DNA from: Aurantiochytrium sp. KH105
Lineage: Eukaryota; Sar; Bigyra; Thraustochytrida; Thraustochytriidae
Reading direction: 5' to 3'
NCBI GenBank assembly: GCA_003116975.1
Contig: BGKB01000043.1
Coordinates: forward strand, 372,001-436,000
Length of the DNA: 64,000 bases
Position numbers and translations under genes: made by a program. This document shows, in pieces, positions 35,730 to 64,000 of the stretch (its first letter is position 1; each line of letters opens with the position of its first letter). The notes under the pieces are model-generated. The model was given only the letters and a program-made list of their open reading frames with translations. It had not been told where the DNA came from and ran no database searches.

Positions 35730-38171
35730 ATGACACGCCACGTGTGGATTGCTTTGACAACGGCGCAGGTGATGCTGGTGGCAGGTCGGGCGGACTTTGG
35801 CGACTGTGGAACAAACAGCTGCAACCAGTACATCTCTGACAGAGTCTGCAACGAAGACACGATCGGCGAAGACTCGCAAGCTCCGAGCGATGACTTTTAC
35901 CGCGTCGGCGTCTTGCGATCGCTTTCGTCTGGACCTGAAACTGACTTTGCCACTATGTGTGCCTGGGAAAAAGCGCTCAGCGATGGTCTCATGTCGCACG
36001 TCACAGATCTCGACATGTTCTGGATCGACACCGGATCGGGCGTCTCTGGTGGTGTGCAATCAGGCTTGTGCATACGCGAGTCTGGTATAAATCTGGCTGT
36101 TGGACCATTGTACAGCAGTGTCGCGCAAGGCGCTTCCATCATCGGAACCATTTACGAGAAGAATGTCATTGGCGCCACGTCCACGTCCCCTCTACTGAGC
36201 GACACTGACTCGTACAGCTACTTTTCGCGTGTCATCCCTTCCGATAACTACCAAGGCGCGATGCTCGCAGAATACGCCGTCAACACACAGAGATGGACGA
36301 AGATCGCCACGATCTCCATCTCGTCCGAGGCGTACTTTGAAGGCATCACCAACGTCTTTGCGGAGACCGCGGTCTCGCTTGGCGCACAAGTCACCAGCTA
36401 CACCCTCACGAGTGATTTTACAGAATCACAGATCTCCGAAGCTTTGCGCAAGATCAGAGCGTCTGGCGTCCGCGTCGTCATGATCGCAATGGAGCCTGCG
36501 CGCGATGCTCTCGTCATCGCCAACGCTACAGGAATGCTCGACGAAGGCTGGGCGTGGCTCACGACGGAGTCGACGATCACTACTCTCACGAGCAACCTGT
36601 GGGGTCTGCCAGAAGAAAAGCTGGTTGACATGGAAAAGCTTCTTCACGGCTTCATCGGCCTTGTGCCCTGGATGGACACGGAAGGTCAGGCGCATCAGGA
36701 TTGGCTCTCGTGCGTGGATAGCCACTACGATGACACCACCGGCATGTTTGCCAACCTCGGCGCGATGCTGACAGCTGCGAACGGAAACTCTGTCGAAGAC
36801 GGAAAGAGCAAAGCCAAGGACATGTGGAACGGGTACTTTCATGATGCCATGATGCTCGCACTCCGTGCGCTCAGTCCTCTGACGGCTTCTGAGCGTGCAA
36901 ACGCCACACGGATCCGGGAAGCGATCCGCGAAATGACTTACAACGGTACCTCGGGTTCCATTGCACTCGATGCCGCTGGTGATCGTACCGTGGCGACGTA
37001 CGATATTCTCAACATCTACAATGAAGCGCAGAACTCGGTCGGTACCATTGATGCGGGGACGCGTACAGTGACAACGTTTCAAGCCGAGATCTTTCCGGGC
37101 AACACCACCACTGTCCCCGTCGACTTTGTCATGGCGTGCTCCAACGACGACTACAACATGACTGTGAGCGCGTGCGCGAACTCTCTGCGTACTGTGACGC
37201 TGACGCAGAACTCGGAAGACGCGTTGCGATACTGTCCGGACATTGAAGCGTTCGAAGCCAGCTGCGACCACGCGAGCTTGAAGAGCGCCGGGGCGGGGCT
37301 CGTCATGTTCGGGTATGCCTTCATCTTCATCTTCCTGCTCGCGCTCGCCAGAGTATGGTCACACAAGGTCATTCGTCTATCGCAGCGCAAGTTTCTGCTC
37401 ATCATGATCTTTGGCGCTTTCGTCGCGCTTGCCGGGCCGCTTCTCTCTGCGAATCAACTCAGCGATGTTCGCTGTGCTGCACTTCCGTGCTTCACGGCGG
37501 TGGGGTACGTTCTGCTGTTTGGACCTCTCTTTGTCAAGACGTGGCGAGTGAGCGTCCTCGTGAACAACTCGAGGCTGCGCAGCAAGAAGGTGTCAAACTG
37601 GCGTCTGTATCGTCGTCTGGCAGCGCTGATTGTCGCAACTGTCGGCTTGCTGGCGGTGATGCTTCTCGTGGATCCTCCCAAGCCGCAGACGAGCTCGAAG
37701 CCGGTCGACGATGCGGATGGCAATGTGCACTTGGTTCCTTTCGAAACCTGTGCGGTCGAGTCGGGAACACTGGGAATGCTCGTGATTCTATTGCTCGGGC
37801 TTATGACGGCGTATGGCTGCTTCGTCTCGTATCAGATTCGCCACGTGACCTCTGAGCTCAGCGAGGCGCGGTGGATCTTCTTGTCTGTGTACAATGGCGC
37901 GTTGCTCTCGATGGTCACGCTGGCTGTGGTTCTCGGGCTTGACCTAACGTACGCTGAGCTGCACCTGTTTGCGAGTCTTGGCTCTGTGCTTACGTGCATG
38001 GTCACAGTGTCGCTAATTATGGTTCCGAAGCTCATCAACATTCACAAGGATGTCAAGTTCACCATGTTGACCGGAGCCGGAACTACTGCGGTGAATCCCT
38101 CCTCAGCTGCGGGTCCCGTGTCGAGCGTGGCAGCTAACTCCACCAAGATTGAGACTGCGACAGAATCTTGA
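35730..38171 (+). CDS. GABA-B-like class C G-protein-coupled receptor, copy D
   Basis: A single exon encodes 813 residues from an ATG at 35730. The signal peptide begins MTRHVWIALTT and joins the shared AQVMLVAGRADFGDC sequence at its cleavage region. The ligand domain (to about 518) and seven-helix domain (about 520-771) are almost identical to copy C. The tail ends SSVAANSTKIETATES and differs from C after NPSSAA. With identical binding and helix regions, C and D should see the same ligand and differ, if at all, in expression, sorting or cytosolic partners. The gene converges with the EF-hand gene on the other strand, with 169 bp between stops. Confidence 0.92.
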   Translation: MTRHVWIALTTAQVMLVAGRADFGDCGTNSCNQYISDRVCNEDTIGEDSQAPSDDFYRVGVLRSLSSGPETDFATMCAWEKALSDGLMSHVTDLDMFWIDTGSGVSGGVQSGLCIRESGINLAVGPLYSSVAQGASIIGTIYEKNVIGATSTSPLLSDTDSYSYFSRVIPSDNYQGAMLAEYAVNTQRWTKIATISISSEAYFEGITNVFAETAVSLGAQVTSYTLTSDFTESQISEALRKIRASGVRVVMIAMEPARDALVIANATGMLDEGWAWLTTESTITTLTSNLWGLPEEKLVDMEKLLHGFIGLVPWMDTEGQAHQDWLSCVDSHYDDTTGMFANLGAMLTAANGNSVEDGKSKAKDMWNGYFHDAMMLALRALSPLTASERANATRIREAIREMTYNGTSGSIALDAAGDRTVATYDILNIYNEAQNSVGTIDAGTRTVTTFQAEIFPGNTTTVPVDFVMACSNDDYNMTVSACANSLRTVTLTQNSEDALRYCPDIEAFEASCDHASLKSAGAGLVMFGYAFIFIFLLALARVWSHKVIRLSQRKFLLIMIFGAFVALAGPLLSANQLSDVRCAALPCFTAVGYVLLFGPLFVKTWRVSVLVNNSRLRSKKVSNWRLYRRLAALIVATVGLLAVMLLVDPPKPQTSSKPVDDADGNVHLVPFETCAVESGTLGMLVILLLGLMTAYGCFVSYQIRHVTSELSEARWIFLSVYNGALLSMVTLAVVLGLDLTYAELHLFASLGSVLTCMVTVSLIMVPKLINIHKDVKFTMLTGAGTTAVNPSSAAGPVSSVAANSTKIETATES
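35762..38111. repeat. 2350-bp near-identical block, copy in receptor D
   Basis: Partner of 31898-34247, with the same length, boundaries and orientation. Confidence 0.9.
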
Positions 38172-43500: not shown

Positions 43501-44310
43501 TGTAAGGTGTATTACTTGCCCAGTTTTTACAAAGAAACTCTCTCTCTCTCCATCTCTCTCTCTTTGACCATGGTGGTAGACGTAGTATACCATTATCATC
43601 CGCATCCGGACAAGCAGCCAGAAGCAAGTTAGGCTAAGGTCCATGATGTCTTTTCCCTCTTCGAATGTGCGTGTCGCCGCAAAAAAGAAAGACCGGAAAC
43701 AAACCAATACAAGAAAAGAAAGCGATTGGCAGTGGCAAGGACTGACAGTGACAGTGGATTGGCAACATCGAAAAAAAAGAAAAGAAAGATAAATTGACAG
43801 TGAAATAAAGAAGAAAGCGTGGTGGTTGCAGCCCAAGGACGCAGACCGCGATCGCACGCGCGCCCCGCGCTTCTCGTTCGCCAGACACGGTCCCTCGCCT
43901 GCCTCGCCAACGCCGCTGCTGCGCGCTTCGCCGCCGGCCGCTGATCTCTGCGCAGGAAGGCGGCGGGCGCGCGAATCAAAAGCGCCACCACACGCGACCG
44001 TCAACCCATTCGCCATCGACCGGCCGGCAAACCTGGCTGCCTTGCACTCCAAGGAGCGGGAGGCGCAAGGTCGGGACGCGAGCCGGACGGAGGCCCTGCT
44101 CGCGTGGGGCCAGGCGGGCGGCTGACAGATCGACTGGCCAGGTAGCGGGCCACAGCTTGAAGAAGCCATACAGCTTGGCCCTGGCTCGTTGTGCACAGCG
44201 TGGCACAGCCTGGGCCTAACAACTACTACCTCGCGGCCAACCAAGGCGGCCAACGACCAATCTCGCCGCGGCGCAGAAAGGTCTTCGCGGCAACATCACT
44301 CCCTGTGGCC
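43501..44310. other. Intergenic region
   Basis: About 810 bp lie between the PDI gene and the CCCH/RING gene. TC-rich repeats follow the PDI stop (43540-43566), then A-rich and GACAGTG-type DNA, then GC-rich DNA. The downstream frame is open from about 44191 without an ATG and may be 5' UTR. No gene is seen. Confidence 0.4.
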
Positions 44311-47300
44311 ATGTCCGCGGAAGCAGGGACCTCTGCGACGGCCAAGGCTTCACAATGCAAATTCTATTCACGAAAGGGCGGCTGCCGCTTCGGCGACCGC
44401 TGTCGATTCGCTCATATTGACAGTGACGACCCTGGCTCCGCTGAGCCTTCAGCGCCGGTGTCGGGTAGCAAGAGCACTCCAGCTTCGGAGCCCGTTCCTC
44501 CAGGCGTGGATCCTAAGGCTTGGCGAATCATGCCGCCGGCGATCAAGAACAGGATCCTTGGCGACATGCGAACGAGCTCCACTCAATCCTCGGCCCCGCC
44601 GCGTCCTGCCGGAGCAAAGGCCAACAAAGCAGGGACTAGCGCCCCCAAATCGCTTTCAAGTCCCCCGCACCATACTTCGCAGAGCTCTGCGACCGCAGGA
44701 GCTAATAAGTCTTCGCCGCTGCAGCGCTCCGCAGTCGCAACCCCCACTTCATCCTCTGCGGCGCGGCCCGAGGGCATCGACGCCGCGCTTTGGGAGTCAA
44801 TGCCTCAGTTTCTACGCGATAAGATTCTCACTGAGCTCTCCCATAACAAGAGCGCGCAATCGCATGGGGGTGCTGCAAAAGGAACCAAGCCATCAAACGT
44901 GGATGAAGGTTCAAAGAAGACGGACAAGACACCTTTGTCAAAAAAGGCCCCTTCAGTTGCACAGGCTCCGATCGACTGGACACGTGGTCCTTTCTTGCCG
45001 GAAGCTACCCCCGTCGCACGCGTTCCTGGCAACGCGCTCGCGTATTTTGCCATCGATCCCGTGCGCGCCGAAATTGCCATTTGCTCGCTGAGTTCCAAGC
45101 CAGACAAGGTCAACATCTACAGCTCCGACGAAGGCAACTATCAGTTCACCCTCACTCTCCCTGCGGACGGCGGACCGCTCACCTTTGATCCAAAGCGCGG
45201 AAATCTCCTCGTGCTTTTGTCCAACAAGGGCCAAATTGTCTACTTTGCTCGCCAAGGAAAAAAGTGGGTGCAGGATCGCGCCGCTATCGAAATGCGCGTT
45301 GATATCTCGCAATGCGCTGAGGCTATCCATATGTCACGCAATCCTGAATTTGCGGGCATACTTATTCGTCTCAACAAAGCCCGGGCCCAGGAGCTAGGCA
45401 TGCCACCTTTTCTGGCCTACACCCCGCAGGGTATTGTGTTCCTTCCCGAGTCTTTTGAAAATTTCCAGGACATTTGCACAATTCCAGGGAGCGACATCTC
45501 AGTTCTTGCCACAGACAAACAGATCTTTGCTCGACAATCGCAGACATTCAGAGAGATTCCCTTTCTTGGCAAGGGAATGGCACCGCCTTCGACCCTTCAT
45601 TTGAGCGTTGGGCCGGACGGCAAGATCTACGCACTCGCGCGCTGGGAAACCACGCTTGAGACAAGAGTCTACTGGCTCACCGAGGAAGGTCGCAACATGC
45701 ATGTCCAAATCTCCTCGCGCATTATTGCGTTCGAAAAGCCGTATTTCGCCGTGCACTCTTTTGAAGCAGGCCGCGACGGTGTTCTTTTCGTTTGCATAAT
45801 CGAGTCACCTCACGCTAGTGCAAAAGGCGGCTGGAAATCGCAATGGAAATCGCACCGTGAGATCTATCGTATTGATCCGCACCCGGCAGCGAGCAAGCTA
45901 CAATTCTCCGAGGCTGCAGGTCTCATCCGTCGCGTTTGCGGCGACAGCGTTATCCTGCGTCAATCGTCGAGCCCATTGCAAGATTCGCAACATGTAGGAA
46001 GTGTAGGTGTGGCGAACGACTTGGCGCCTTCCGGGGCCTGGGAAGTCTCCGCGTCACCTGGTTCCAGCAGCGGGTCGGCACTTGCACCGCAAGTTGTGCC
46101 CCAAACGAGGTCGCAGACGGTGCCTGTTCAAGAGGCATCGCCAAAGCATGAGTCTCTCCATATCGATACGCGTGCGCCACCAGGCATGGCGCCGATCCAT
46201 CGACACGGGCTGGATTCACAGGCTCCCACGAGTATCGCAACGGACGGCGTGGATAACCAGTCCGCCTTGGGCGCAAGCCATTTTCCTCTTTCTTCGTCCG
46301 CACACGGGGCTTCTTCATCGCCATTCGGTGGCCTTCCTTCGGGGGATCTCGACGCACATTCTCCGCTTGGGCCGGGCGCTGGGGGGTTCTTCAGCTTTGC
46401 ACCATCGTCAAGCTCGGGTGGATTCTATGGGCATTTCGGAGGCGCTTTCTCTTCCGGTCCATCCGTCTCTTTGCCGCACGTGCAGACGCCTTTGGGTCAG
46501 TCTTCGACTTCCGGGCATCATCAACAGTACGTCGATGACAGCTTTCATCAGCAGGTGTCGTTGTCTTTGCCGCCAACCACTGCGGCGCCGCCTCTCACGG
46601 AGAGCCAAACCGCGACAACACCGCGCTCGCCCCCTCCTGGATTTGGTCCATCGGTTCCTGCTGCTCGACCTGACCCGCCGCAGCCAAGGGAGAATCCTAT
46701 TCTTCCGCCTCGCTCCATTCCAGCTCCTGAAGCCCGTAGACCACAAGAGACTGTGGTACATGACGTCGTCGCTTCTGACCCTGAGTCAGAAAATGCAGAA
46801 TCGATGTTAAACCAGGAGGTCCATGCGCAGAGTATCATGGAGCAGTTTGGAGACCAGCCGATTGGTCAAGATGCCAATGACGCCGTTTCGAGTGTTTGGA
46901 GCGCCCCAAGCGAAACATGGAAGCCGGCTCCTTTTCCATCATCTCCGAGTCAAAGTGTAAAAGTGGCCATCTCTTCAACACCAAAGGGCAAGGATGGTGT
47001 ACAGATGAAAGCCAGCGGACCTGCGAAGGTCGGCACGCAGATCAAGACGAGTGAGCAAGCGGCGAAGGCAGCCAAGCAACCGACAGCAGACGGACCGGCT
47101 GATGCTGGCGACAAGAAAAGGTCCAGCCAAGCCTCATTGAATGATTGCCCCATTTGCTTTGAAGAGATGGATGATCCGCGACGTCTCTTGGTCGCTGGCA
47201 AATGTGGTCATTGTTTTCATCGCGTTTGCCTTGACGATTGGATGGGCAAAGAGGGTGAGAAGCACCAGCGATGCCCAATGTGCAACAACGCAATCAACAA

Positions 47301-49620
47301 GGCTGCAGTTTTTGTCCCTCACGAGCGTCCCAAAGAAGGGCGCGTCCATCTGGGCCACCAACGTTCGACATCTACTGGTCCCCTCATCACCACAAAGACC
47401 CCCGCTGCACCCGTCGCCACAAAGACCCTCGCTGCAAAGACGATCACTCCTTCTGCGGCCTTGGGCAAATCGGAGAAAGAAGTCTCTGCCTTGCGTGCTG
47501 CACCGGCAGCGGGCACAGGCGCGAGTGCAAGCGCGGGTCCGGGTACGGGTGCGGGTGCGGGCAAGACCTGGACGCGTAATCTCACTCGTCACTCGAGTTC
47601 CGGGGCTGCGAGTAACTCGGAGGATGCCTTTGTCGTGCAGCGCGCAAAGCCAGCGCATATTCTGAAAAAGGAAAAGAAGCTCGATGCCGCGCGGCGCGCA
47701 GCGCTTGCTGCGGAGGAAGCCAAAAAGAGCCTTTTCGCATCAGATGACGAGGATGAAAGCGAGGAAAGCGAAGAGGAAGATGAGAATCGCAAGAAAAAGA
47801 CCAGCGATCACGCAGATGGCAAAGAGTCCGCGACAAAGAACGCCCGCGCCTCGAAAGAGTCCGCGAGCAAGAAGGGTGACGAGGACGCAGGCAAGAATGG
47901 TAAAGCATCTTCGACCAAGAATAGCAAAGGTACCCCGAAGGAAGCAGAGAGCAACAAAGGGGATTTACTCAAGCGCAAGGCTGAGCAGCTCATGAAGAGA
48001 CGCTCGTATACTGCGGCTCTCGCGCAATTCAAAGAGGCAATTGCAGAAACACCCGGTGACTTCGATCTGCACTATGGAGCCGGCCAGTGTGCTCTCTCGA
48101 TGAAGCAGTTCGAAGAAGCCGAAGAGCAATTTTCCGTGTGCGTGTTTCTGCGCGACGACAATCACAAGGTTCACCTGAGTCTCGGTCGAATCCGCATGCA
48201 ACAGGGCCATCTGAGCGCGGCCGCGGAAAGCTTTGACGCTGCGATTCGCATCAACCCACTTGCGTTCGAGTCATGCGCGTCCGAAAGAAGGACTTTGGAG
48301 CAAGCAATGGAGAAGCTTGAGCGTGCTAAGCAGCTCAAAGAGCATGGCAAACTGAAGAAGGCGCTCTCTGTGGCTGGTGAGGGTCTCAAGTTGGTTCCCT
48401 CTTGCGCGGAGCTGATACAACTCCAAGAAAATGTCAAGGTCATGAAAGATGACCTCGACATGTCCTCCATGGTTACCAAAATCCGCAGCTACGTCGAAGT
48501 AGGAGACTACCCTACGGCGGAAGATCTCATGACGAAGGTCATGGGCCGCATGTCGGAGTCTAGCAAAGCCAAAGCCACTGCAGAGGTCTGGGCTCTCGCT
48601 GCGTCCATCGCAGTGATGCAGAGCAACTACGAGCTGGCAATTCGACAATTCGAATTTGCGTACCAATGTGACACGGACAACCAGCTTCGTTTGAAGAACT
48701 TTCACGACGCAAACCAGCTTCTGCAGGCGGGCATCAAAATGGCCGAGACCGATCAGCACTCCGAGGCGCTGCTCAACTTCGTCCAGGCTCTCGAAAAGCA
48801 ACCGCACAGCATGCCCTGGTTCGTCAGCAGCATCTTCCTTCAGATGGGCGAATCGCTTCACGCCCTTGGGGAGAGGGAGGAAGCTCGCAGGGCGTACTCG
48901 CGCGCGGTGGAGTCGAGCCCGGGCAATATCTCGGTGGCGCTCGCAAAGATTCAGTATCTAGAGCGCCTCGGTGACTCCTCGTCCATTTTCAATGCGTTCT
49001 TGACAGCGCGCGATGCCGAGCTTCACATGCAAGACCATAATGACAAGCGGACACTTGCGTCGCGTCAGCGAAGACTCTTTGACGAGTACACCAGGTTGCG
49101 ACGCCTGAACGATACGGACGCTCGCGCAGCGAACCACGTGGACTATTATCGAGTCCTTGGTCTCAATCACGCACGAAGAGAGGCAAGTTCGAAGCTCATC
49201 TTTGACGCCTTCGAGCGCAAGTGCATGAAGCTTCTCAAGAACCACATGCACGACGAGGACGAAGTATCGGTGCGGCGTCACATGATCGACCTTGGCGAAG
49301 CTTTCGCAGTGCTTTCTGATCCAGAATTGCGCGAACAGTATGACAGGGGGACTCTTTTTGAGGAGCCCTTTTTCGAAGCAGGCAAGGCCAGCCAACGCCA
49401 GGACGAGATGCTGAAAAGACTTGACAAAGCGGACCCATCGGCGGGCTGGTCTGCCTTCAAGGAGCTTCTGGATCGCTTTGAAAAAGATATCGACTACTGC
49501 AACGAGGACCTGGATTACGAGTATGTCTACGGAGATGACCCAACGCCTTCAGACAGCTACGGAGCCGACGTCTCTCCTGCAAGTAGTCAGGACGGCTCGC
49601 AATCGCTCGATCTCGATTGA
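44311..49620 (+). CDS. Multidomain CCCH zinc finger / RING-H2 / TPR / J-like protein
   Basis: A single exon encodes 1769 residues from an ATG at 44311; an upstream 40-codon extension lacks an ATG. In order: a CCCH finger at 16-35 (spacing C-x8-C-x5-C-x3-H) that should bind RNA; Ser/Pro-rich linkers with two related VDPKAWRIMPPAIKNRIL-like helical motifs (the second is IDAALWESMPQFLRDKIL); a predicted beta-propeller region at about 225-570; a disordered Ser/Pro/Gln stretch; a RING-H2 at about 946-993 (CPIC, then C-x-H-x2-H-x2-C, then CPMC); a charged region with an acidic patch near 1145; TPR-like repeats at about 1220-1560; and a J-like domain at about 1611-1680 (DYYRVLGLNHAR to LSDPELREQYDRG) in which the HPD tripeptide is not visible. 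It is probably an RNA-linked ubiquitin ligase/co-chaperone scaffold. Confidence 0.88.
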   Translation: MSAEAGTSATAKASQCKFYSRKGGCRFGDRCRFAHIDSDDPGSAEPSAPVSGSKSTPASEPVPPGVDPKAWRIMPPAIKNRILGDMRTSSTQSSAPPRPAGAKANKAGTSAPKSLSSPPHHTSQSSATAGANKSSPLQRSAVATPTSSSAARPEGIDAALWESMPQFLRDKILTELSHNKSAQSHGGAAKGTKPSNVDEGSKKTDKTPLSKKAPSVAQAPIDWTRGPFLPEATPVARVPGNALAYFAIDPVRAEIAICSLSSKPDKVNIYSSDEGNYQFTLTLPADGGPLTFDPKRGNLLVLLSNKGQIVYFARQGKKWVQDRAAIEMRVDISQCAEAIHMSRNPEFAGILIRLNKARAQELGMPPFLAYTPQGIVFLPESFENFQDICTIPGSDISVLATDKQIFARQSQTFREIPFLGKGMAPPSTLHLSVGPDGKIYALARWETTLETRVYWLTEEGRNMHVQISSRIIAFEKPYFAVHSFEAGRDGVLFVCIIESPHASAKGGWKSQWKSHREIYRIDPHPAASKLQFSEAAGLIRRVCGDSVILRQSSSPLQDSQHVGSVGVANDLAPSGAWEVSASPGSSSGSALAPQVVPQTRSQTVPVQEASPKHESLHIDTRAPPGMAPIHRHGLDSQAPTSIATDGVDNQSALGASHFPLSSSAHGASSSPFGGLPSGDLDAHSPLGPGAGGFFSFAPSSSSGGFYGHFGGAFSSGPSVSLPHVQTPLGQSSTSGHHQQYVDDSFHQQVSLSLPPTTAAPPLTESQTATTPRSPPPGFGPSVPAARPDPPQPRENPILPPRSIPAPEARRPQETVVHDVVASDPESENAESMLNQEVHAQSIMEQFGDQPIGQDANDAVSSVWSAPSETWKPAPFPSSPSQSVKVAISSTPKGKDGVQMKASGPAKVGTQIKTSEQAAKAAKQPTADGPADAGDKKRSSQASLNDCPICFEEMDDPRRLLVAGKCGHCFHRVCLDDWMGKEGEKHQRCPMCNNAINKAAVFVPHERPKEGRVHLGHQRSTSTGPLITTKTPAAPVATKTLAAKTITPSAALGKSEKEVSALRAAPAAGTGASASAGPGTGAGAGKTWTRNLTRHSSSGAASNSEDAFVVQRAKPAHILKKEKKLDAARRAALAAEEAKKSLFASDDEDESEESEEEDENRKKKTSDHADGKESATKNARASKESASKKGDEDAGKNGKASSTKNSKGTPKEAESNKGDLLKRKAEQLMKRRSYTAALAQFKEAIAETPGDFDLHYGAGQCALSMKQFEEAEEQFSVCVFLRDDNHKVHLSLGRIRMQQGHLSAAAESFDAAIRINPLAFESCASERRTLEQAMEKLERAKQLKEHGKLKKALSVAGEGLKLVPSCAELIQLQENVKVMKDDLDMSSMVTKIRSYVEVGDYPTAEDLMTKVMGRMSESSKAKATAEVWALAASIAVMQSNYELAIRQFEFAYQCDTDNQLRLKNFHDANQLLQAGIKMAETDQHSEALLNFVQALEKQPHSMPWFVSSIFLQMGESLHALGEREEARRAYSRAVESSPGNISVALAKIQYLERLGDSSSIFNAFLTARDAELHMQDHNDKRTLASRQRRLFDEYTRLRRLNDTDARAANHVDYYRVLGLNHARREASSKLIFDAFERKCMKLLKNHMHDEDEVSVRRHMIDLGEAFAVLSDPELREQYDRGTLFEEPFFEAGKASQRQDEMLKRLDKADPSAGWSAFKELLDRFEKDIDYCNEDLDYEYVYGDDPTPSDSYGADVSPASSQDGSQSLDLD

Positions 49621-52005: not shown

Positions 52006-54114
52006 TTACGTCTCCTTTTCGAATGCTGCTGCTGCTGCTGCTGCTGCTGCCTCGCTAGTAGAAGGAAAAGTACCAGCAGAAATGTATTGACTGTGAGTCA
52101 GTCTGCTATTTGCTGGCTCTGGAACACCAAAGGCATCAAAAGGGACTGCATCGTAGGCATCGCCAGGGCCAGGGCCAGGGCCAGGGGCGGGGCCGGGGTC
52201 GAGGTGATCATTATTGGTGCTACCAGTAGCAGACTCGCCACCATGATTGTATGAACCGTCTGAAAAGGCTGGAATGTCATAACCAATCGTTCCCATCTCT
52301 CCTCCGACGCCGCCGCCCATGACGCCCAGGGGGGTTGAGTACGTTTCGTACTGCGAAGATCCACCATAGCCAACACCCAACCCAAGCCCCATGCCAGGGC
52401 TCTCACCGTGAAAGGCTCCACCCCCGCCACCCAGCATGAAGGGATCAGGCTGAGGAAAGAGTGGATCATAATGATCCGTGGCCGGCAGAGGGCGATAACG
52501 CTCCTCAAAGAGACCTGAAGCAGAGTAAGAACCAAAGCCCGAAGACAGGTCGCCCTGATCGGGAAGTGCAGCATAGCCAAGCTGAGGCGGTGCGTTGTGT
52601 TCATCCATGTCATCATTATTGGGGTCCCCAAGAGACTCGACAGATCTCTCGACGGCAAGGGGAATTCGCAGCTTGTCGCTGTTTTCAAGCACGAGAGCTG
52701 CGATTCGCTTGTATACCTCGCCTCCAAGGATGAAGCCGCGATTTGCGTCGGTGAAGATTTTGGACTGCCGCACACCTTCTGAAGGCGTGACATAGGCCAC
52801 CACAAGACATCCGTCCTGGCTCTGGCTGAATCGGATAAGAAAGGTGCCCACAGGGTGACCCTCTAGCATATCTTCGGCATCATCGAAACTAAGGAATCCG
52901 CGAAAGAGGCGAGCAGGCCCAATATTTTTCACGTCTGGAGCAGGTTGCTGGAGCTGGGCCGAATATGCTGCCACAAGTTCCGCAAAGGAATTGTACGAGT
53001 GGTTACCACTGACAAAGACGCTCTTCTCGTCCTCGTTTGGAACATAGGCGCGGAAAAGCGCATGATTGACCACGCCTGTGAGCGCATTTGCATAGCTGAC
53101 AGCCCACGTGCACACGGAACTTTCGCTGAAGCGAATCAAAAAGGTTCCTGGAGGGTGCGGAGTCAGCACGCAGCGAGCTTCATCAAAAGAGAGCGCACCT
53201 GCGAACCAAGGCGGGCTCGTCAAAGAAGCCTTGAGCTGGATGAGGGCGACACGCAGGCCAGGGCCATACCGAAACAAGAAATCTCCGAGCTGATAGACTG
53301 TGACGGCTGGCCGTGAGTTCGAGCTCAGTGCGTTTCTCAGTTCAACTCGCACGTCTTCGTGCGCGACCAAGCGCGCAACCTTGGGGTCGGCGTGGTTGTC
53401 GAGCGCCGTAAAAAACTGCTGCCACGCAACCGCATACTTGCTCTTTCCAAACGTTTCGACCCACCACTTGCAGCCTTCTTCGTCCTCAATGAGGTGTTGG
53501 ATGGAGAGGATGCCGCCTTCAGCACGAAGTCGTGCGGCCAAGTCGGCATTTCGATCGCGAGACACGCTGGGTGGCGATCCGGCGGTCTCTTGCTCCGTGG
53601 CGGCCTTGGCCAGAGTTTCTTCTCCGCGCGGGGAAGCATTCATGGCGGGGTGAAGATAGGGCTGAACAATATCGACATGAGCGATGAGTTTCTTCTCGAT
53701 GCGAGTGAAGAAGAGACGGAGCCGCGGACCCGTGAGCGTCAGGCTGAGCTTGCCATGAAGATTGCAATGGTTGATCTTGTCTCGGAGTGCGGTGAGCAGC
53801 TCGAAGAGAATGAGGCACCAGCTCTGGAAGCCAAAGTCGTGCAGGAAGGTATTGAGGAGTTGCGGGTTGAAAATCTGGGCGAGCACAGAGCTGCAAAGGG
53901 TCAAGGCCACGCGAAGACCGGCGACCTCGTCATCGCTGGGGTGTCTCTCAAGTCCATGCGTGACCTCTCTGGCGGTCTCGATGCTCATTTTGAGCAGACG
54001 CAGACACGTCTTGGCATCCTTGCTCAGGCCCGGGCTCTCCCTGCTCGCCGCCGCCGCCGCCGACGAGCCGGCGGAGGACTCGCCGCCCTTGGCGCTGCGC
54101 CCGGTGAGCCGCAT
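52006..54114 (-). CDS. Tandem SH2 protein with Cbl TKB-like N-terminal half
   Basis: A single exon encodes 702 residues from an ATG at 54114. Residues 30-155 are helical and could be a four-helix bundle. Residues 200-300 contain CKWWVETFGKSKYAVAWQQF and VTVYQLGDFLFRYG, resembling the EF-hand-like segment of Cbl proteins. This runs straight into SH2-1 (about 303-390) with the phosphotyrosine-binding Arg328 in PPGTFLIRFSES. SH2-2 (about 404-490) has Arg428 in PVGTFLIRFSQS, exactly 100 residues on. The tail (500-702) is Gly/Pro-rich with many tyrosines (NYET-like and YDxP-like contexts) that could be phosphorylated, and ends in poly-Ala. No RING or kinase domain is present. The PPGTFLxRFS motif is also STAT-like, so a STAT-type linker-SH2 is the alternative reading. 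It is probably a phosphotyrosine adaptor. Confidence 0.87.
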   Translation of the reverse strand: MRLTGRSAKGGESSAGSSAAAAASRESPGLSKDAKTCLRLLKMSIETAREVTHGLERHPSDDEVAGLRVALTLCSSVLAQIFNPQLLNTFLHDFGFQSWCLILFELLTALRDKINHCNLHGKLSLTLTGPRLRLFFTRIEKKLIAHVDIVQPYLHPAMNASPRGEETLAKAATEQETAGSPPSVSRDRNADLAARLRAEGGILSIQHLIEDEEGCKWWVETFGKSKYAVAWQQFFTALDNHADPKVARLVAHEDVRVELRNALSSNSRPAVTVYQLGDFLFRYGPGLRVALIQLKASLTSPPWFAGALSFDEARCVLTPHPPGTFLIRFSESSVCTWAVSYANALTGVVNHALFRAYVPNEDEKSVFVSGNHSYNSFAELVAAYSAQLQQPAPDVKNIGPARLFRGFLSFDDAEDMLEGHPVGTFLIRFSQSQDGCLVVAYVTPSEGVRQSKIFTDANRGFILGGEVYKRIAALVLENSDKLRIPLAVERSVESLGDPNNDDMDEHNAPPQLGYAALPDQGDLSSGFGSYSASGLFEERYRPLPATDHYDPLFPQPDPFMLGGGGGAFHGESPGMGLGLGVGYGGSSQYETYSTPLGVMGGGVGGEMGTIGYDIPAFSDGSYNHGGESATGSTNNDHLDPGPAPGPGPGPGDAYDAVPFDAFGVPEPANSRLTHSQYISAGTFPSTSEAAAAAAAAAFEKET

Positions 54115-55703: not shown

Positions 55704-58700
55704 ATGTCCGCTGACAATGTCACCAAGAAGCCTCGTGTCGAGTTCTCGTGGAACTCGGGCGACGCCATTAAGCCCAAGCCCCAGACCAACGGCCCTCCTC
55801 GCCCGCAGTCCGAGGCTGCGCAGAACGCCACCCCCAACCCGTACAACTACGAGGCGTTCAACAGTGTGGAGAAGATCGCCTCTCTCCGCAAAAACGCCGA
55901 CAAGCTCGACTGGTCGCAGCCTGCTGACCTCTATGACGAGAACTTTCCCGCCTTTGTCCGTGCCCGTGACAGCGTGCGGTCGTACATTGCCCAGCTCTTT
56001 GCTGAGGAGATCGCACTTTATGATGGTGCCATGGGCACGATGATCCAGAACTATGCCAAGGACAACACCTTGGAGGAGGCCGAGTACCGCGGTGACCGCT
56101 TCAAGGACTGGTCGAACGAAGTCAAGGGCAACAACGACCTTTTGTCGCTCACGCAGCCCAAGATCATCAAGGACATTCACCGGGCCTACCTCGACGCTGG
56201 CTCGCAGCTGATCGGCACGAACACCTTCTCTTCGACCACGATTGCGCAGGCCGATTATGCGATGGAAAGTCTTGCGTATGAGCTCAACTACATGGGTGCC
56301 AGACTTGCGCGTGAGGCGTGTGACGAAGTGACCGCAGAAGATCCTTCTCGTCCGCGCTTTGTGGTAGGTGCGCTGGGACCTACCAACCGCACAGGCTCGA
56401 TCTCGCCCGACGTTGAAGACCCTAGCGCTCGTAACGTGACCTTTGACGAGCTCGTGGAGGCGTACTTTGAGCAGGTCGTCGGTCTGATGGACGGTGGCGC
56501 GGATATTCTGATGGTGGAGACGATCTTCGACACTCTGAACGCCAAGGCCGCGCTCTTTGCGATCACCGAATACTTGGAAGTGACTGGCCTTGATGTGCCG
56601 GTGTTCATCTCGGGCACCCTGGTCGACCAGTCGGGCCGCACGCTTTCAGGCCAGACGGGCGAAGCTTTCTACGCATCGGTGCGCCACGCCAAGCCGATGT
56701 GTGTTGGCCTGAACTGCGCACTTGGCGCACAGCAAATGGCGCCGTTCCTGGAGCGTCTGAGCAAGGTCGTGGAGTGCTTTGTGCACGTGTACGCCAACGC
56801 GGGTCTCCCGAACGCCATGGGCGGGTACGACGACACGCCAGAGGACATGGCGCGTTACAACACGCCGTTCTTCGAGAACCATCTTGTGAACATGGTTGGC
56901 GGCTGCTGCGGCAGCACGCCGCCTCACATTGCTGCTCTCGGTAAAAGCATCAAAGAGAACGGATACAAGACGCGCGAGCTCCCTGCTCTCGGCATGCCCA
57001 AGATGTGGCTCTCTGGACTTGAGGACTTGGTCGTCGATGATGTGTACAACCAGCATGGTATGCCGTTCCTGAACGTGGGCGAGCGCTGCAACATTGCTGG
57101 CTCGCGTAAGTTCAAGCGTCTGATCATGGAAGGCAACTACGGCGAGTGCATGGATATTGCCAAAGCGCAGGTCTCTGACGGCGCGCACGTGATCGACATC
57201 AACGTCGACGACGGCATGCTTGACGGCATGGACGCGATGCAAAAGTTCGTCAAGATCGCCATCACCGAGCCGGAAGTGTCCAAGGTCCCGTTCATGCTGG
57301 ACGCGTCGAACTTTGACATTGTCGTCGCTGGCCTCAAGTGGTGCCAGGGCAAGCCGATCGTGAACAGCATCTCGCTCAAGGTCGGCGAGGAGAAGTTCAA
57401 GCAGCAGGCTACGCTTCTGCGCAAGCACGGCGCGGCCGTGGTCGTGATGGCCTTCGACGAAGAAGGTCAGGCCGCGACGGAAGACGAAAAGGTGCGCATC
57501 TGCAAGCGCTCGTACGACATTCTGGTGAACGAGGTGCGGTTCCCACCCGAGGACATCATCTTTGATCCGAACGTACTGACGATCGGAACGGGTATGGAGG
57601 AGCACAACGCGTATGGCGTGGACTTTATTCGCGCGACGAAGCGCATCAAGGAGGCTTGTCCGTATGTGAAGATCAGCGGCGGTATCTCGAACCTGAGCTT
57701 TGGTTTTCGTGGTGTGTCAAAGATTCGCGAGTCGATCCATGCGGTGTTTCTCGAGCACGCGATCCTTGAATCGGGTATGGACGTTGGTATTGTGAACGCC
57801 GGCGAGCTCAAATGCGCGGACGACGTTGAGCCTGACCTGCGCGAGCTTTGCGAAGATCTTGTGTTGAACAAGATTCCTGAGGCCACAGAGCATATGCTCG
57901 AGGCGACGAGTTATGAACGCGCCGTTCTCGACGCCAAGAAGAAGGGACTTCCCGCGCCAAAGAAACCTCGCATCAAGGTAACCAAAAAGCCTCGTGTCGA
58001 GTTCTCGTGGAACTCGGGCGATGCCATCAAGCCCAAGCCCCAGACCAACGGCCCTCCTCGCCCGCAGTCCGAGGCTGCGCAGAACGCCACGCCCAACCCG
58101 TACAACTACGAGGCGTTCAACAGTGTGGAGAAGATTGCCTCTCTCCGCAAAAACGCCGACAAGCTCGACTGGTCGCAGCCTGCTGACCTCTATGACGAGA
58201 ACTTTCCCGCCTTTGTCCGTGCCCGTGACAGCGTGCGGTCGTACATTGCCCAGCTCTTTGCTGAGGAGATCGCACTTTACGATGGTGCCATGGGCACGAT
58301 GATCCAGAACTATGCCAAGGACAACACCTTGGAGGAGGCCGAGTACCGCGGTGACCGCTTCAAGGACTGGTCGAACGAAGTCAAGGGCAACAACGACCTT
58401 TTGTCGCTCACGCAGCCCAAGATCATCAAGGACATTCACCGGGCCTACCTCGACGCTGGCTCGCAGCTGATCGGCACGAACACCTTCTCTTCGACCACGA
58501 TTGCGCAGGCCGATTATGCGATGGAAAGTCTTGCGTATGAGCTCAACTACATGGGTGCCAGACTTGCGCGTGAGGCGTGTGACGAAGTGACCGCAGAAGA
58601 TCCTTCTCGTCCGCGCTTTGTGGTAGGTGCGCTGGGACCTACCAACCGCACAGGCTCGATCTCGCCCGATGTGGAGGACCCTAGCGCTCGTAACGTGACC

Positions 58701-61700
58701 TTTGACGAGCTCGTGGAGGCGTACTTTGAGCAGGTTGTCGGTCTGATGGACGGTGGCGCGGATATTCTGATGGTGGAGACGATCTTCGACACTCTGAACG
58801 CCAAGGCCGCGCTCTTTGCGATCACCGAATACTTGGAAGTGACTGGCCTTGATGTGCCGGTGTTCATCTCGGGCACCCTGGTCGACCAGTCGGGCCGCAC
58901 GCTTTCAGGCCAGACGGGCGAAGCTTTCTACGCATCGGTGCGCCACGCCAAGCCGATGTGTGTTGGCCTGAACTGCGCACTTGGCGCACAGCAAATGGCG
59001 CCGTTCCTGGAGCGTCTGAGCAAGGTCGTGGAGTGCTTTGTGCACGTGTACGCCAACGCGGGTCTCCCGAACGCCATGGGCGGGTACGACGACACGCCAG
59101 AGGACATGGCGCGTTACAACACGCCGTTCTTCGAGAACCATCTTGTGAACATGGTTGGCGGCTGCTGCGGCAGCACGCCGCCTCACATTGCTGCTCTCGG
59201 TAAAAGCATCAAAGAGAACGGATACAAGACGCGCGAGCTCCCTGCTCTCGGCATGCCCAAGATGTGGCTCTCTGGACTTGAGGACTTGGTCGTCGATGAT
59301 GTGTACAACCAGCATGGTATGCCGTTCCTGAACGTGGGCGAGCGCTGCAACATTGCTGGCTCGCGCAAGTTCAAGCGTCTGATCATGGAAGGCAGCTACG
59401 GCGAGTGCATGGATATTGCCAAAGCGCAGGTCGCTGACGGCGCGCACGTGATCGACATCAACGTCGACGACGGCATGCTTGACGGCATGGACGCGATGCA
59501 AAAGTTCGTCAAGATCGCCATCACCGAGCCGGAAGTGTCCAAGGTCCCGTTCATGCTGGACGCGTCGAACTTTGACATTGTCGTCGCTGGCCTCAAGTGG
59601 TGCCAGGGCAAGCCGATCGTGAACAGCATCTCGCTCAAGGTCGGCGAGGAGAAGTTCAAGCAGCAGGCTACGCTTCTGTGCAAGCACGGCGCGGCCGTGG
59701 TCGTGATGGCCTTCGACGAAGAAGGTCAGGCCGCGACGGAAGACGAAAAGGTGCGCATCTGCAAGCGCTCGTACGACATTCTGGTGAACGAGGTGCGGTT
59801 CCCACCCGAGGACATCATCTTTGACCCGAACGTACTGACGATCGGAACGGGTATGGAGGAGCACAACGCGTATGGCGTGGACTTTATTCGCGCGACGAAG
59901 CGCATCAAGGAGGCATGTCCGTATGTGAAGATCAGCGGCGGTATCTCGAACCTGAGCTTTGGTTTTCGTGGTGTGTCAAAGATTCGCGAGTCAATCCATG
60001 CGGTGTTTCTCGAGCACGCGATCCTTGAATCGGGTATGGACGTTGGTATTGTGAATGCTGGCGAGCTCAAATGCGCGGACGACGTTGAGCCTGACCTGCG
60101 CGAGCTTTGCGAAGATCTTGTGTTGAACAAGATTCCTGAGGCCACAGAGCATATGCTCGAGGCGACGAGTTATGAACGTGCCGTCCTCGACGCCAAGAAG
60201 AAGGGTCGGCCAGCGCCAAAGAAACCTCGCATCAAGGTAACCAAGAAGCCTCGTGTCGAGTTCTCGTGGAACTCGGGCGACGCCATCAAGCCCAAGCCCC
60301 AGACCAACGGCCCTCCTCGCCCGCAGTCCGAGGCTGCGCAGAACGCCACGCCCAACCCGTACAACTACGAGGCGTTCAACAGTGTGGAGAAGATTGCCTC
60401 TCTCCGCAAAAACGCCGACAAGCTCGACTGGTCGCAGCCTGCTGACCTCTATGACGAGAACTTTCCCGCCTTTGTCCGTGCCCGCGATAGCGTGCGGTCG
60501 TACATTGCCCAGCTCTTTGCTGAGGAGATCGCACTTTACGATGGTGCCATGGGCACGATGATCCAGAACTATGCCAAGGACAACACCTTGGAGGAGGCCG
60601 AGTACCGCGGCGACCGCTTCAAAGACTGGTCGAACGAAGTCAAGGGCAACAACGACCTTTTGTCGCTCACGCAGCCCAAGATCATCAAGGACATTCACCG
60701 GGCCTACCTCGACGCTGGCTCGCAACTTATTGGCACGAACACTTTCTCTTCGACCACGATTGCGCAGGCCGATTATGCGATGGAAAGTCTTGCGTATGAG
60801 CTCAACTACATGGGTGCCAGACTTGCGCGTGAGGCGTGTGACGAAGTGACCGCAGAAGATCCTTCTCGTCCGCGCTTTGTTGTAGGTGCGCTGGGACCTA
60901 CCAACCGCACAGGCTCGATCTCGCCCGACGTTGAAGACCCTAGCGCTCGTAACGTGACCTTCGACGAGCTCGTGGAGGCGTACTTTGAGCAGGTCGTCGG
61001 TCTGATGGACGGTGGCGCGGATATTCTGATGGTGGAGACGATCTTCGACACTCTGAACGCCAAGGCCGCGCTCTTTGCGATCACCGAATACTTGGAAGTG
61101 ACTGGCCTTGACGTGCCGGTGTTCATCTCGGGCACCCTGGTCGACCAGTCGGGCCGCACGCTCTCGGGGCAGACGGGCGAAGCTTTCTACGCATCGGTGC
61201 GCCACGCCAAGCCGATGTGTGTTGGCCTGAACTGCGCACTTGGCGCGCAGCAAATGGCGCCGTTCCTGGAGCGTCTGAGCAAGGTCGTGGAGTGCTTTGT
61301 GCACGTGTACGCCAACGCGGGTCTCCCGAACGCCATGGGCGGGTACGACGACACGCCAGAGGACATGGCGCGTTACAACACGCCGTTCTTCGAGAACCAT
61401 CTTGTGAACATGGTTGGCGGCTGCTGCGGCAGCACGCCGCCTCACATTGCTGCTCTCGGTAAAAGCATCAAAGAGAACGGATACAAGACGCGCGAGCTCC
61501 CTGCTCTCGGCATGCCCAAGATGTGGCTCTCTGGTTTGCAAGATCTTGTTGTGGATGACGTCCACAATCAACTTGGCATGCCGTTCCTGAACGTGGGCGA
61601 GCGCTGCAACATTGCTGGCTCGCGTAAGTTCAAGCGTCTGATCATGGAAGGCAACTACGGCGAGTGCATGGATATTGCCAAAGCGCAGGTCGCTGACGGC

Positions 61701-64000
61701 GCGCACGTGATCGACATCAACGTCGACGACGGCATGCTTGACGGCATGGACGCGATGCAAAAGTTCGTCAAGATCGCCATCACCGAGCCGGAAGTGTCCA
61801 AGGTCCCGTTCATGCTGGACGCGTCGAACTTTGACATTGTCGTCGCTGGCCTCAAGTGGTGCCAGGGCAAGCCGATCGTGAACAGCATCTCGCTCAAGGT
61901 CGGCGAGGAGAAGTTCAAGCAGCAGGCTACGCTTCTGCGCAAGCACGGCGCGGCCGTGGTCGTGATGGCCTTCGACGAAGAAGGTCAGGCCGCGACGGAA
62001 GACGAAAAGGTGCGCATCTGCAAGCGCTCGTACGACATTCTGGTGAACGAGGTGCGGTTCCCGCCCGAGGACATCATCTTTGACCCGAACGTACTGACGA
62101 TCGGAACGGGTATGGAGGAGCACAACGCGTATGGCGTGGACTTTATTCGCGCGACGAAGCGCATCAAGGAGGCATGTCCGTATGTGAAGATCAGCGGCGG
62201 TATCTCGAACCTGAGCTTTGGTTTTCGTGGTGTGTCAAAGATTCGCGAGTCGATCCATGCGGTGTTTCTCGAGCACGCGATCCTTGAATCGGGTATGGAC
62301 GTTGGTATTGTGAATGCTGGCGAACTTCTCGGCGCTGACGAGGTGGAGCCCGATTTGCGCAAACTCTGTGAGGATCTTGTCCTGAACAAGACACCACAAG
62401 CGACGGAGCGCATGCTCGAGGCCACACAGCGTGAGCGCGAGCGACTGAAGCGTCTGAAGGAGGGTGGCGGCGAAGCAGCTGCGGCTGAGAAACCGACCGA
62501 CTGGCGCGCCAAACCTGTCAAGGAGCGTCTGTCTCACGCTCTGGTCAATGGCATCACTAAATTCATTGAAAAGGATGCGGAGGAAGCACGTCTGGCGTCC
62601 GCGAAACCTCTCGACGTGATTGAAGGCCCCCTGATGGACGGCATGGGCATCGTTGGCGATCTTTTTGGGTCGGGTAAAATGTTCTTGCCCCAGGTCATCA
62701 AATCGGCGCGTGTTATGAAGAAGGCCGTGGCGTACCTTGAGCCTTTTATCGAGGCCGAAAAAGAGGAGAACCTTCGCAAGCTCGGCATTGATCCAAACGA
62801 CGCCGACCCAGACGAGGTCTCGCAGGGTACTTTTCTGATCGCAACTGTCGCTGGTGACGTGCACGATATCGGCAAGAACATCACAGCTGTCATTCTCGGA
62901 TGCAATGCTGTACGTGTGATCGACCTCGGCGTCATGTGCGCTTGCGATGATATTATCAAGGCCGCAAAGGAAAACAAGGTGGATGCGGTCGGCCTTTCAG
63001 GTCTCATCACGCCTAGTCTTGACGAAATGGTCAAGGTGGCCAAGGAGATGAAGAAGGCTGGGCTCGATATTCCTTTATTGATTGGCGGTGCAACGACGAG
63101 CAAGCGCCACACCGCCATCAAGATCTCCCCCCACTATTCGACCCCGGAGCATCCAGTCATTCATGTTCTCGACGCTAGTCGCGCCGTCACGGTTGTGCAG
63201 ACACTTCTTTCCGAGGAAGACAAGCCCGATTTCGTGGAGGAAATCCAGGAGGATTATGCTGAAATCGTGGAAGATTACTACGCAGGCCTCGAGGAACGCA
63301 AGTTCTTTTCCCTCGAAGTTGCACAGAAGAAGCGCCTCGAGATCGATTTCGAGGCAAGCCCTCTCGCACCCGCGCCCCAGGTTGGCATCGGTGCCAAGGC
63401 CGCTCCCACGTGCGCGATCGAGGATGTCGTGCCATACATTGACTGGGGCCCCTTCTTCCAGACATTTGAGCTGCGCGGTCGCTACCCGAACCGCGGCTAC
63501 CCCAAGATCTTCAACGACGCGAACGTTGGCGAGGAGGCACGCAAGCTCTTTGACGATGGTCAGGCTCTCCTCAAGCAGATTATGGAAGACAAGAGCCTTT
63601 GGCTCGAGGGCTCGTATGGCATCTTCCCTGCGAACCGGGCTGACAATGGCGAGGATGTCATTATTTACGAAGATGAGACGCGGACGGTCGAGCGCAGCAG
63701 GCTGTGCATGCTTCGTCAGCAAGCGCAGAGCGAGGCAGCGAATATGCTTAGCCAGGCCGATTTTGTCGCGCCGCCCGGATTTGAGGACTATATCGGCGGC
63801 ATGGCTGTTGCTTGCCACGGCGTCGAGGACCTCGCGAGCAAGTACAAGGCCGAGCATGATGACTTTACGGCAATTCTTGCCCAGGCCATCGGCGATCGTC
63901 TCGTTGAGGCCTTTGCGGAGAAGCTGCATCGTGATATCCGTGTCGAGCTCTGGGGCTACGCCAAGGAGGAGGCCCTCAAGCATGAGGACCTGCTTAAGAT
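55704..64000 (+). CDS. metH: Cobalamin-dependent methionine synthase with three tandem Hcy/folate modules (3' end beyond window)
   Basis: One frame is open from the ATG at 55704 to the window end, at least 2765 codons. MetH moves a methyl group from methyl-tetrahydrofolate to homocysteine through B12. Here the first half (N-terminal extension, homocysteine domain, pterin domain; 753 residues) occurs three times, units starting at 55722, 57981 and 60240, all in frame. Each has the zinc cysteines (GLNCALG; GGCCGS; Cys338, 401 and 402 in unit 1) and the pterin motif [16 protein letters not shown], so all three look competent. Unit 3 continues to one cap helix bundle ([18 protein letters not shown]), one B12 domain with lower ligand His2387 (DVHDIGKN), and the AdoMet activation domain ([25 protein letters not shown]), cut by the window about 80-100 residues before its usual end. 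Normal MetH is about 1230 residues. Confidence 0.93.
55722..57980 (+). repeat. MetH module repeat, unit 1 (2259 bp)
   Basis: It runs from ACCAAGAAGCCTCGTG to the linker ATCAAGGTA. The unit encodes 753 residues: about 100 residues of linker/extension, the homocysteine domain and the pterin domain. It differs from unit 2 by few residues (I saw Asn/Ser in EG(N/S)YGEC, Ser/Ala in QV(S/A)DGA, Arg/Cys in LL(R/C)KHG and Leu/Arg in KKG(L/R)PAP). Confidence 0.95.
57981..60239 (+). repeat. MetH module repeat, unit 2 (2259 bp)
   Basis: It has exactly the same length as unit 1 and stays in frame with it. It is joined to unit 1 by a lysine/proline-rich linker ([15 protein letters not shown]). Scattered silent substitutions separate it from units 1 and 3. 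Confidence 0.95.
60240..62323 (+). repeat. MetH module repeat, unit 3 (homology ends at about 62323)
   Basis: Near-identity with units 1 and 2 runs to GAATGCTGGCGA at about 62323. After that the protein stays homologous ([17 protein letters not shown]) but the DNA diverges and leads into the cap and B12 domains. A dense patch of differences lies at 61534-61578. Confidence 0.93.

Follow-up and report, generated by a model that had tools for sequence, protein, structure and literature searches.

Tandem homocysteine:folate halves and a single B12 half in the methionine synthase genes of Aurantiochytrium sp. KH105

A 64,000-nucleotide stretch of the Aurantiochytrium sp. KH105 genome (GCA_003116975.1, contig BGKB01000043.1, positions 372,001 to 436,000), hereafter the window, ends in a gene that resembles metH, encoding cobalamin-dependent methionine synthase (MetH), and in which the front half of the enzyme is encoded repeatedly. 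The frame runs from its ATG to the window edge over 2765 codons without a stop, as the initial annotation of the locus had stated. In the adjoining contig sequence it reaches a TAG at 64301, which gives a total of 2865 codons or amino acids (315.3 kDa). An open frame of 8.6 kb is far beyond chance. Two direct repeat steps of exactly 2259 bases, likewise noted in the initial annotation, were recovered inside the frame by direct-repeat analysis. Each repeat unit comprises 753 codons and encodes a homocysteine-binding (Hcy) and a folate-binding (Fol) domain; three such Hcy:Fol units are followed by one half with the Cap, B12-binding (cobalamin, Cob) and activation (Act) domains, here termed the C-half (Table 1). 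A start codon is found only in unit 1, the earliest methionine within any unit being codon 106, and a leader of about 97 residues is repeated in every unit.

A search of the whole assembly (76 Mb, 367 contigs) placed the window on a contig here called C43. A second metH gene is located on contig C193. It consists of two units and one C-half, encodes 2112 amino acids and is about 95% identical to the C43 copy. The domain counts Hcy:Fol:Cap-Cob:Act are thus 3:3:1:1 on C43 and 2:2:1:1 on C193. In the following, units 1 to 3 of C43 are called a1, a2 and a3 and the two units of C193 b1 and b2; a1, a2 and b1 are outer units, and a3 and b2 are last units.

In the C43 protein, Pfam profiles detect three S-methyl_trans, three Pterin_bind, one Cap, one B12-binding and one activation domain. 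The three copies of the Hcy domain correspond to PF02574, and the zinc-cysteine motifs GLNC and GGCC are present in all five units of the genome. The Fol domains of all five units have kept the motifs that contact methyltetrahydrofolate (MeTHF; human R384, N470, D537, N579, R585 and R591, as named in PMC13376404). Behind the last unit, a Cap domain and a cobalamin domain with the DxHxxG motif are found, and the sequence DVHDIGKN occurs once in the C43 protein. The zinc cysteines and pterin motifs of each unit and the single Cap/B12 domain had been read correctly in the initial annotation. The activation domain PF02965 is matched over model positions 2-273 of 273 with 353.9 bits in both gene copies. 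Five further Pfam families match the C43 protein weakly with no single stretch passing, one of which, LRR_FBXL18, exceeds its whole-protein cut-off; these are taken as chance matches summed over the repeats. Judged by its domain content, the gene product is a MetH. On the minus strand, open frames of 319, 319 and 710 amino acids lie antisense to the metH units (56646-57605, 58905-59864 and 59991-62123) and are probably a by-product of codon use.

Table 1 Features of the metH gene in the window (C43, positions of the window)
Feature	Position	Strand	Basis
Multi-unit metH open frame	55704..64000, continuing to the stop codon ending at 64301 on C43	+	ORF
True start ATG TCC GCT GAC, missing from inner units	55704..55715	+	
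Unit 1: leader, Hcy, Linker 1, Fol, outer-type tail (753 codons)	55716..57974	+	Pfam, AF2 model
Unit 2: outer-type tail, private N474S and R569C	57975..60233	+	
Unit 3: Linker 1 patch and tail of last-unit type	60234..62492	+	
Hcy barrels	unit 1 56007..56975; unit 2 58266-59234; unit 3 60525-61493	+	Pfam
Fol barrels	unit 1 57066..57920; unit 2 59325-60179; unit 3 61584-62438	+	Pfam
Linker 1 patch (codons 434-448)	unit 1 57015..57059; unit 2 59274-59318; unit 3 61533-61577	+	
Outer-type Fol end and Linker 2/tail (codons 697-753)	unit 1 57804..57974; unit 2 60063-60233	+	
Last-unit-type Fol end and Linker 2 running into Cap	62322..62492	+	
Single Cap domain PF02607	62520..62741	+	
Single cobalamin-binding domain PF02310 with DVHDIGKN	62829..63101	+	
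Single activation domain PF02965	63417..64000, extending to 64241 past the window	+	

Over the 28 kb compared, C193 and C43 align in collinear pieces of 93.6-96.5% identity with some gaps, and another stretch of the window has one long partner, on C221, with 94% identity. Matches to polyunsaturated fatty acid (PUFA) synthase and to MMADHC likewise occur in contig pairs. The best PUFA-synthase-like frames score 930 bits, which is under the PfaA cut-off of 1010.1; those on C72 and C155 are located close to another match in opposite orientation, an arrangement that is typical of thraustochytrids. For the genes tested, the contig pairs are C43/C193, C43/C221, C72/C155, C27/C56, C290/C61 and C19/C3, with about 94-95% identity where compared (C43/C193 and C43/C221). 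Because the genes tested pair up on contigs, we infer that the assembly represents two haplotypes or two parental genomes, as in a hybrid. On the evidence of the assembly, the repeated layout is real. The third unit may have been gained on C43 or lost on C193. In either gene, further units may also have been collapsed in the assembly, so that the true numbers could be higher than 3 and 2.

The Cap (PF02607) and activation (PF02965) profiles match exactly twice each in the assembly, in both cases within these two metH genes. Neither these two profiles nor a search of the assembly with unit 1 revealed an additional MetH with one unit or a C-half standing alone. The unit 1 search returned five strong matches, one for each known unit, as well as four weak matches with 26-30% identity. 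The MetE domains PF01717 and PF08267 have no match in the assembly, while the same searches were positive in 10/14 and 9/14 control genomes, respectively; the genome domain searches are blind to introns, so that a heavily split gene could escape them. No backup enzyme of the MetE type was found in these searches. A 'MetE-like' polyketide synthase fusion, reported for a Schizochytrium strain (PMC9734096), was considered too; no MetE domain was found here. As neither another Cap or activation domain nor a MetE domain was detected, the two genes appear to be the only methionine synthase of this genome. MMADHC, which is used for cobalamin loading in human (excerpt of PMC13376404), is present in the assembly. 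The accessible text of PMC12734794 cites B12 auxotrophy for three thraustochytrid species and names thiamine as the only essential vitamin of one Aurantiochytrium; the need for B12 is therefore not uniform in thraustochytrids.

Bacterial MetH loci were surveyed for comparison, counting frames of at least 300 amino acids among the best 80 of 152 relatives. One Hcy, one Fol, one Cap-Cob and one Act domain are present in 73 of these 80 loci; six others have no detected Act and one has no detected Hcy, and six further frames carry Hcy alone. More than one Hcy or Fol per frame was found in none (0/80). Neither of the two genes described here shows this usual one-of-each layout, which is not strictly defining for MetH. 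In comparison with MetH and human MTR (PDB 9ssp, 4ccz, 8ssc), the last unit and the C-half together reproduce the five domain types and their order, and share the zinc cysteines, the MeTHF contacts and the cobalamin motif. The differences are the presence of two or three Hcy:Fol halves, the repeated and largely disordered leader and the outer-type linkers. The initial annotation knew of no described MetH with such a layout, and among the matches listed in the open-licence literature, covered by titles and the starts of abstracts, no report of a MetH with repeated Hcy:Fol halves was found either, which is not proof of absence. Judging from its sequence, this is a known enzyme, MetH, whose layout differs from the canonical arrangement with a single domain of each kind.

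To trace the history of the repeats, the five units were compared with each other. Within C43, the DNA identity is 98.8% between units 1 and 2, 94.9% between units 1 and 3 and 94.95% between units 2 and 3. The pairwise differences among these units amount to 27, 114 and 115 positions, and each unit has private substitutions. Between the contigs, a1 and b1 are 97.3% and a3 and b2 97.2% identical over the 753 codons. A total of 174 sites vary among the five units. Contig a is separated from contig b by 28 of them, all within codons 1-433 and 449-696, and the outer units are separated from the last units by 71, all within codons 434-448 and 697-753. Ordered along the unit, these 99 splitting sites form 4 runs, compared to at least 23 runs in each of 100,000 shuffles. 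The run count leaves out 47 sites at which one unit alone deviates, 21 that are shared in other patterns and seven with three states.

The two zones that split outer from last units coincide with linkers. In human MTR, Linker 1 (Pro347-Phe371) locks Hcy to Fol, and the flexible Linker 2 connects Fol and Cap, as described in excerpts of PMC13376404 and likewise of PMC10567725. In our reading of the alignment, codons 434-448 fall inside Linker 1 and codons 697-753 span the end of Fol and Linker 2. Among codons encoding the same residue in a1 and a3, 11/12 are silently different in codons 434-448 and 18/29 in codons 697-735, versus 20/415 and 5/236 outside the two zones. Outer and last units are thus near saturation at silent sites in both zones, whereas the split between the contigs corresponds to about 0.12 silent substitutions per silent site (dS), so the Hcy:Fol duplication is old and long predates the separation of the two contigs, and a recent duplication was rejected. 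Since then the barrels have been homogenised inside each contig, for which gene conversion is the simplest explanation; an origin of the divergent zones from a diverged source would be a less simple alternative. At the protein level, the units differ at 34 positions. Strict outer-versus-last differences are found at codons 436 and 447 and at 23 tail positions, and nine positions vary otherwise (1, 49, 69, 444, 474, 487, 569, 707 and 745). The Hcy barrel, with 322 residues compared, is identical in all five units. The layout given in the initial annotation therefore stands, but its interpretation had overlooked the age of the duplication, the homogenisation of the barrels and the outer-versus-last linker zones.

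No outer unit contains a stop or frameshift. All five units have kept 104 of the 106 residues that are invariant in 58 bacterial Hcy:Fol proteins. The two exceptions, D168 to Q and S534 to A (protein numbering of unit 1), are common to all units. For 91 residues kept in at least 90% of the bacterial proteins, nine are missed by a1, a2 and b1 and ten by a3 and b2; the missed residues look like traits of the lineage rather than decay. Silent and replacement changes between the contigs number 58:3 in unit 1 (p = 7e-34), 62:2 in the last unit and 50:6 in the C-half. The zones found only in the outer units (Linker 1 and tail) show seven silent changes and one replacement (p = 1.6e-4). By these substitution counts, unit 1 is under purifying selection, the outer-only zones included. 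These zones weigh most, because conversion could by itself maintain the outer barrels. The earlier suggestion that the outer units are spares, understood as decaying copies, does not fit unit 1, with its 58:3 against 62:2 in the last unit; for unit 2, with two private replacements in Fol, the case is less clear.

An AlphaFold2 (AF2) model of unit 1 was calculated from a 59-row alignment, for which 58 of 79 usable bacterial stretches were retained after thinning by similarity. The mean predicted local distance difference test score (pLDDT) is 87.8, and the best matches in the PDB are to the N-terminal half of human MTR, 9ssp (template modelling score 0.97 by target length, root-mean-square deviation 1.4) and 4ccz. 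A helix is predicted in the tail (727-747). Values below 50 are found in leader segments 1-52 and 71-88 and in Linker 1 residues 449-452. From the end of a Fol barrel to the next Hcy barrel there are about 116 residues, 66 of them with pLDDT <50 in the single-unit model. The leader has no match to PDB chains at E up to 1.

Taken together, we consider it most likely, from the sequence comparisons, that the outer cassettes are used, so that the substrate sites of two or three cassettes share one B12 domain. The rigid Hcy:Fol half would have been duplicated in tandem and in frame long ago, two or three copies being retained before one Cap:Cob:Act half. Through the leader in every unit, with over half of the residues between one Fol barrel and the next Hcy barrel predicted to be disordered, the units would be strung together like beads. 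Linker 2 tethers the single B12 domain to the last unit; this domain would take the methyl group from MeTHF and pass it to homocysteine on any tethered cassette, which would provide more local substrate-loaded catalytic sites per scarce B12. In the available parts of PMC10567725 and PMC13376404 the Hcy:Fol pair is described to move as a rigid body, and in the latter the Cob domain to travel about 50 A between the two barrels. Since rigid cassettes are strung here on stretches of about 116 largely low-pLDDT residues, a single Cap:Cob module could reach other cassettes. The mechanism is plausible but unproven. We infer one continuous protein with active outer units served by one B12 domain, and assign a probability of about 0.57 to the reading that this is a genuine MetH with an old in-frame tandem of Hcy:Fol halves, in which one B12 module serves two or three cassettes. 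Tentatively, and at somewhat less than even odds, the enzyme may be described more specifically as a carrier enzyme of inverted stoichiometry: one mobile B12 domain would shuttle among two or three tethered, catalytically equal cassettes, the outer Linker 1 and tail would tune docking, conversion would keep the barrels near-identical, and the number of units would vary between genome copies.

Several observations speak against the use of all cassettes. Homogenisation alone preserves the barrels, and independent proof of use comes only from the short outer-only zones with their eight changes. The 21 variable sites with shared patterns fit neither split, and eight of them set a1 and a2 apart from the rest. 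Unit 2 has the two private Fol replacements N474S and R569C, and its ratio of replacement to silent rates (dN/dS) in codons 449-696 is 0.14 against unit 1 (three replacements) and 0.19 against unit 3 (two), whereas the between-contig pairs range from 0 to 0.03. The same features of unit 2, including the slightly higher dN/dS of its Fol region, fit the main rival. In this reading a real array would be translated in full, yet B12 would work with the last unit alone, which has the canonical transition from Linker 2 to Cap. The outer units would then be inert or substrate-binding ballast, tidied by conversion, and their count would drift by unequal crossing-over, which agrees with the homogenised barrels and with the different unit number on C43 and C193. 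The purifying selection on the outer-only Linker 1 and tail zones (7 silent to 1 replacement) argues against it, as do the intact frames of all outer units and their conserved residues, which are kept as in the last unit. We regard this explanation as unlikely, though by no means negligible.

Cutting of the chain or of the mRNA, which would leave separate Hcy:Fol halves and an ordinary MetH with one unit as the working products, appears improbable. The unit junctions are basic and proline-rich and are followed by the disordered leader, and a donor-like AAG-GTAACC at 57975-57983 and 60234-60242 might permit the in-frame removal of one unit. A polypyrimidine tract upstream of the junction is not apparent by inspection, however, we know of no cleavage motif in the junction peptide, and inner units have no methionine before codon 106 and therefore need the upstream frame. 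Re-tasking of the outer units to another partner, to regulation or to folate storage through their own Linker 1 and tail is less probable still. On C43 as well as on C193, the consistent outer-versus-last differences do sit in the two linker zones, but across all five units neither the Hcy barrel protein nor the motifs for folate contact differ, so the same substrate specificity is expected. A single-unit gene falsely expanded in tandem during assembly, as units of 95-99% identity could suggest, is very unlikely and close to negligible, because a separate contig of about 95% identity carries an array of the same kind that has position-matched tails, substitutions not shared with C43 and another number of units; the private substitutions in each C43 unit argue in the same direction.

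The array has partial parallels in other systems. Dinoflagellate luciferase has three catalytic domains per chain, thought to be an old triplication, and resembles the array in its tandem catalytic domains on one polypeptide, with conserved centres and more variable flanks (excerpt of PMC5029497). It has no shared carrier domain, and a luciferase domain resembles its counterpart in another species more than its neighbours in the chain, whereas the barrels here are more alike within a contig. The tandem acyl carrier proteins (ACPs) of PUFA synthase are also repeats within a carrier-type enzyme, and more ACP repeats are stated to give higher output (excerpt of PMC5067506); there the carrier is multiplied, while in metH it is the catalytic half that is repeated, with one carrier only. 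Both parallels may serve as leads, not as tests. Core methionine synthases show that parts of methionine synthase occur in other combinations, but they are described in the available parts of PMC7857596 and PMC7005905 as having no folate-binding domains, in contrast to the multiplied Hcy:Fol halves found here.

Models of MetH assume one B12 domain that moves between a single Hcy and a single Fol barrel. Here the ratio of cassettes to carrier has been varied by evolution, 2:1 and 3:1, in an enzyme that seems to be the only methionine synthase of the cell. This allows one to test whether the travel of the B12 domain, the loading with substrate or the supply of B12 limits turnover, and also whether the halves of MetH can work at a distance along one chain. 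The array is furthermore a clear case of catalytic domains that are homogenised while two linker zones retain old differences.

Apart from metH, the window contains four similar-sized tandem genes with ANF_receptor and 7tm_3 domains on the plus strand (23811-26348, 27738-30179, 31857-34307 and 35730-38171), by domain content a cluster of class C G protein-coupled receptor-like receptors. The minus strand encodes, at 52006-54114, a protein of 702 amino acids in which two stretches match SH2 domains and the tail is rich in Gly and Pro. The frame at 44191-49620 on the plus strand (1809 amino acids) comprises a CCCH finger, a RING finger, TPR repeats and a DnaJ-like stretch that is below its cut-off, an unusual combination in one frame.

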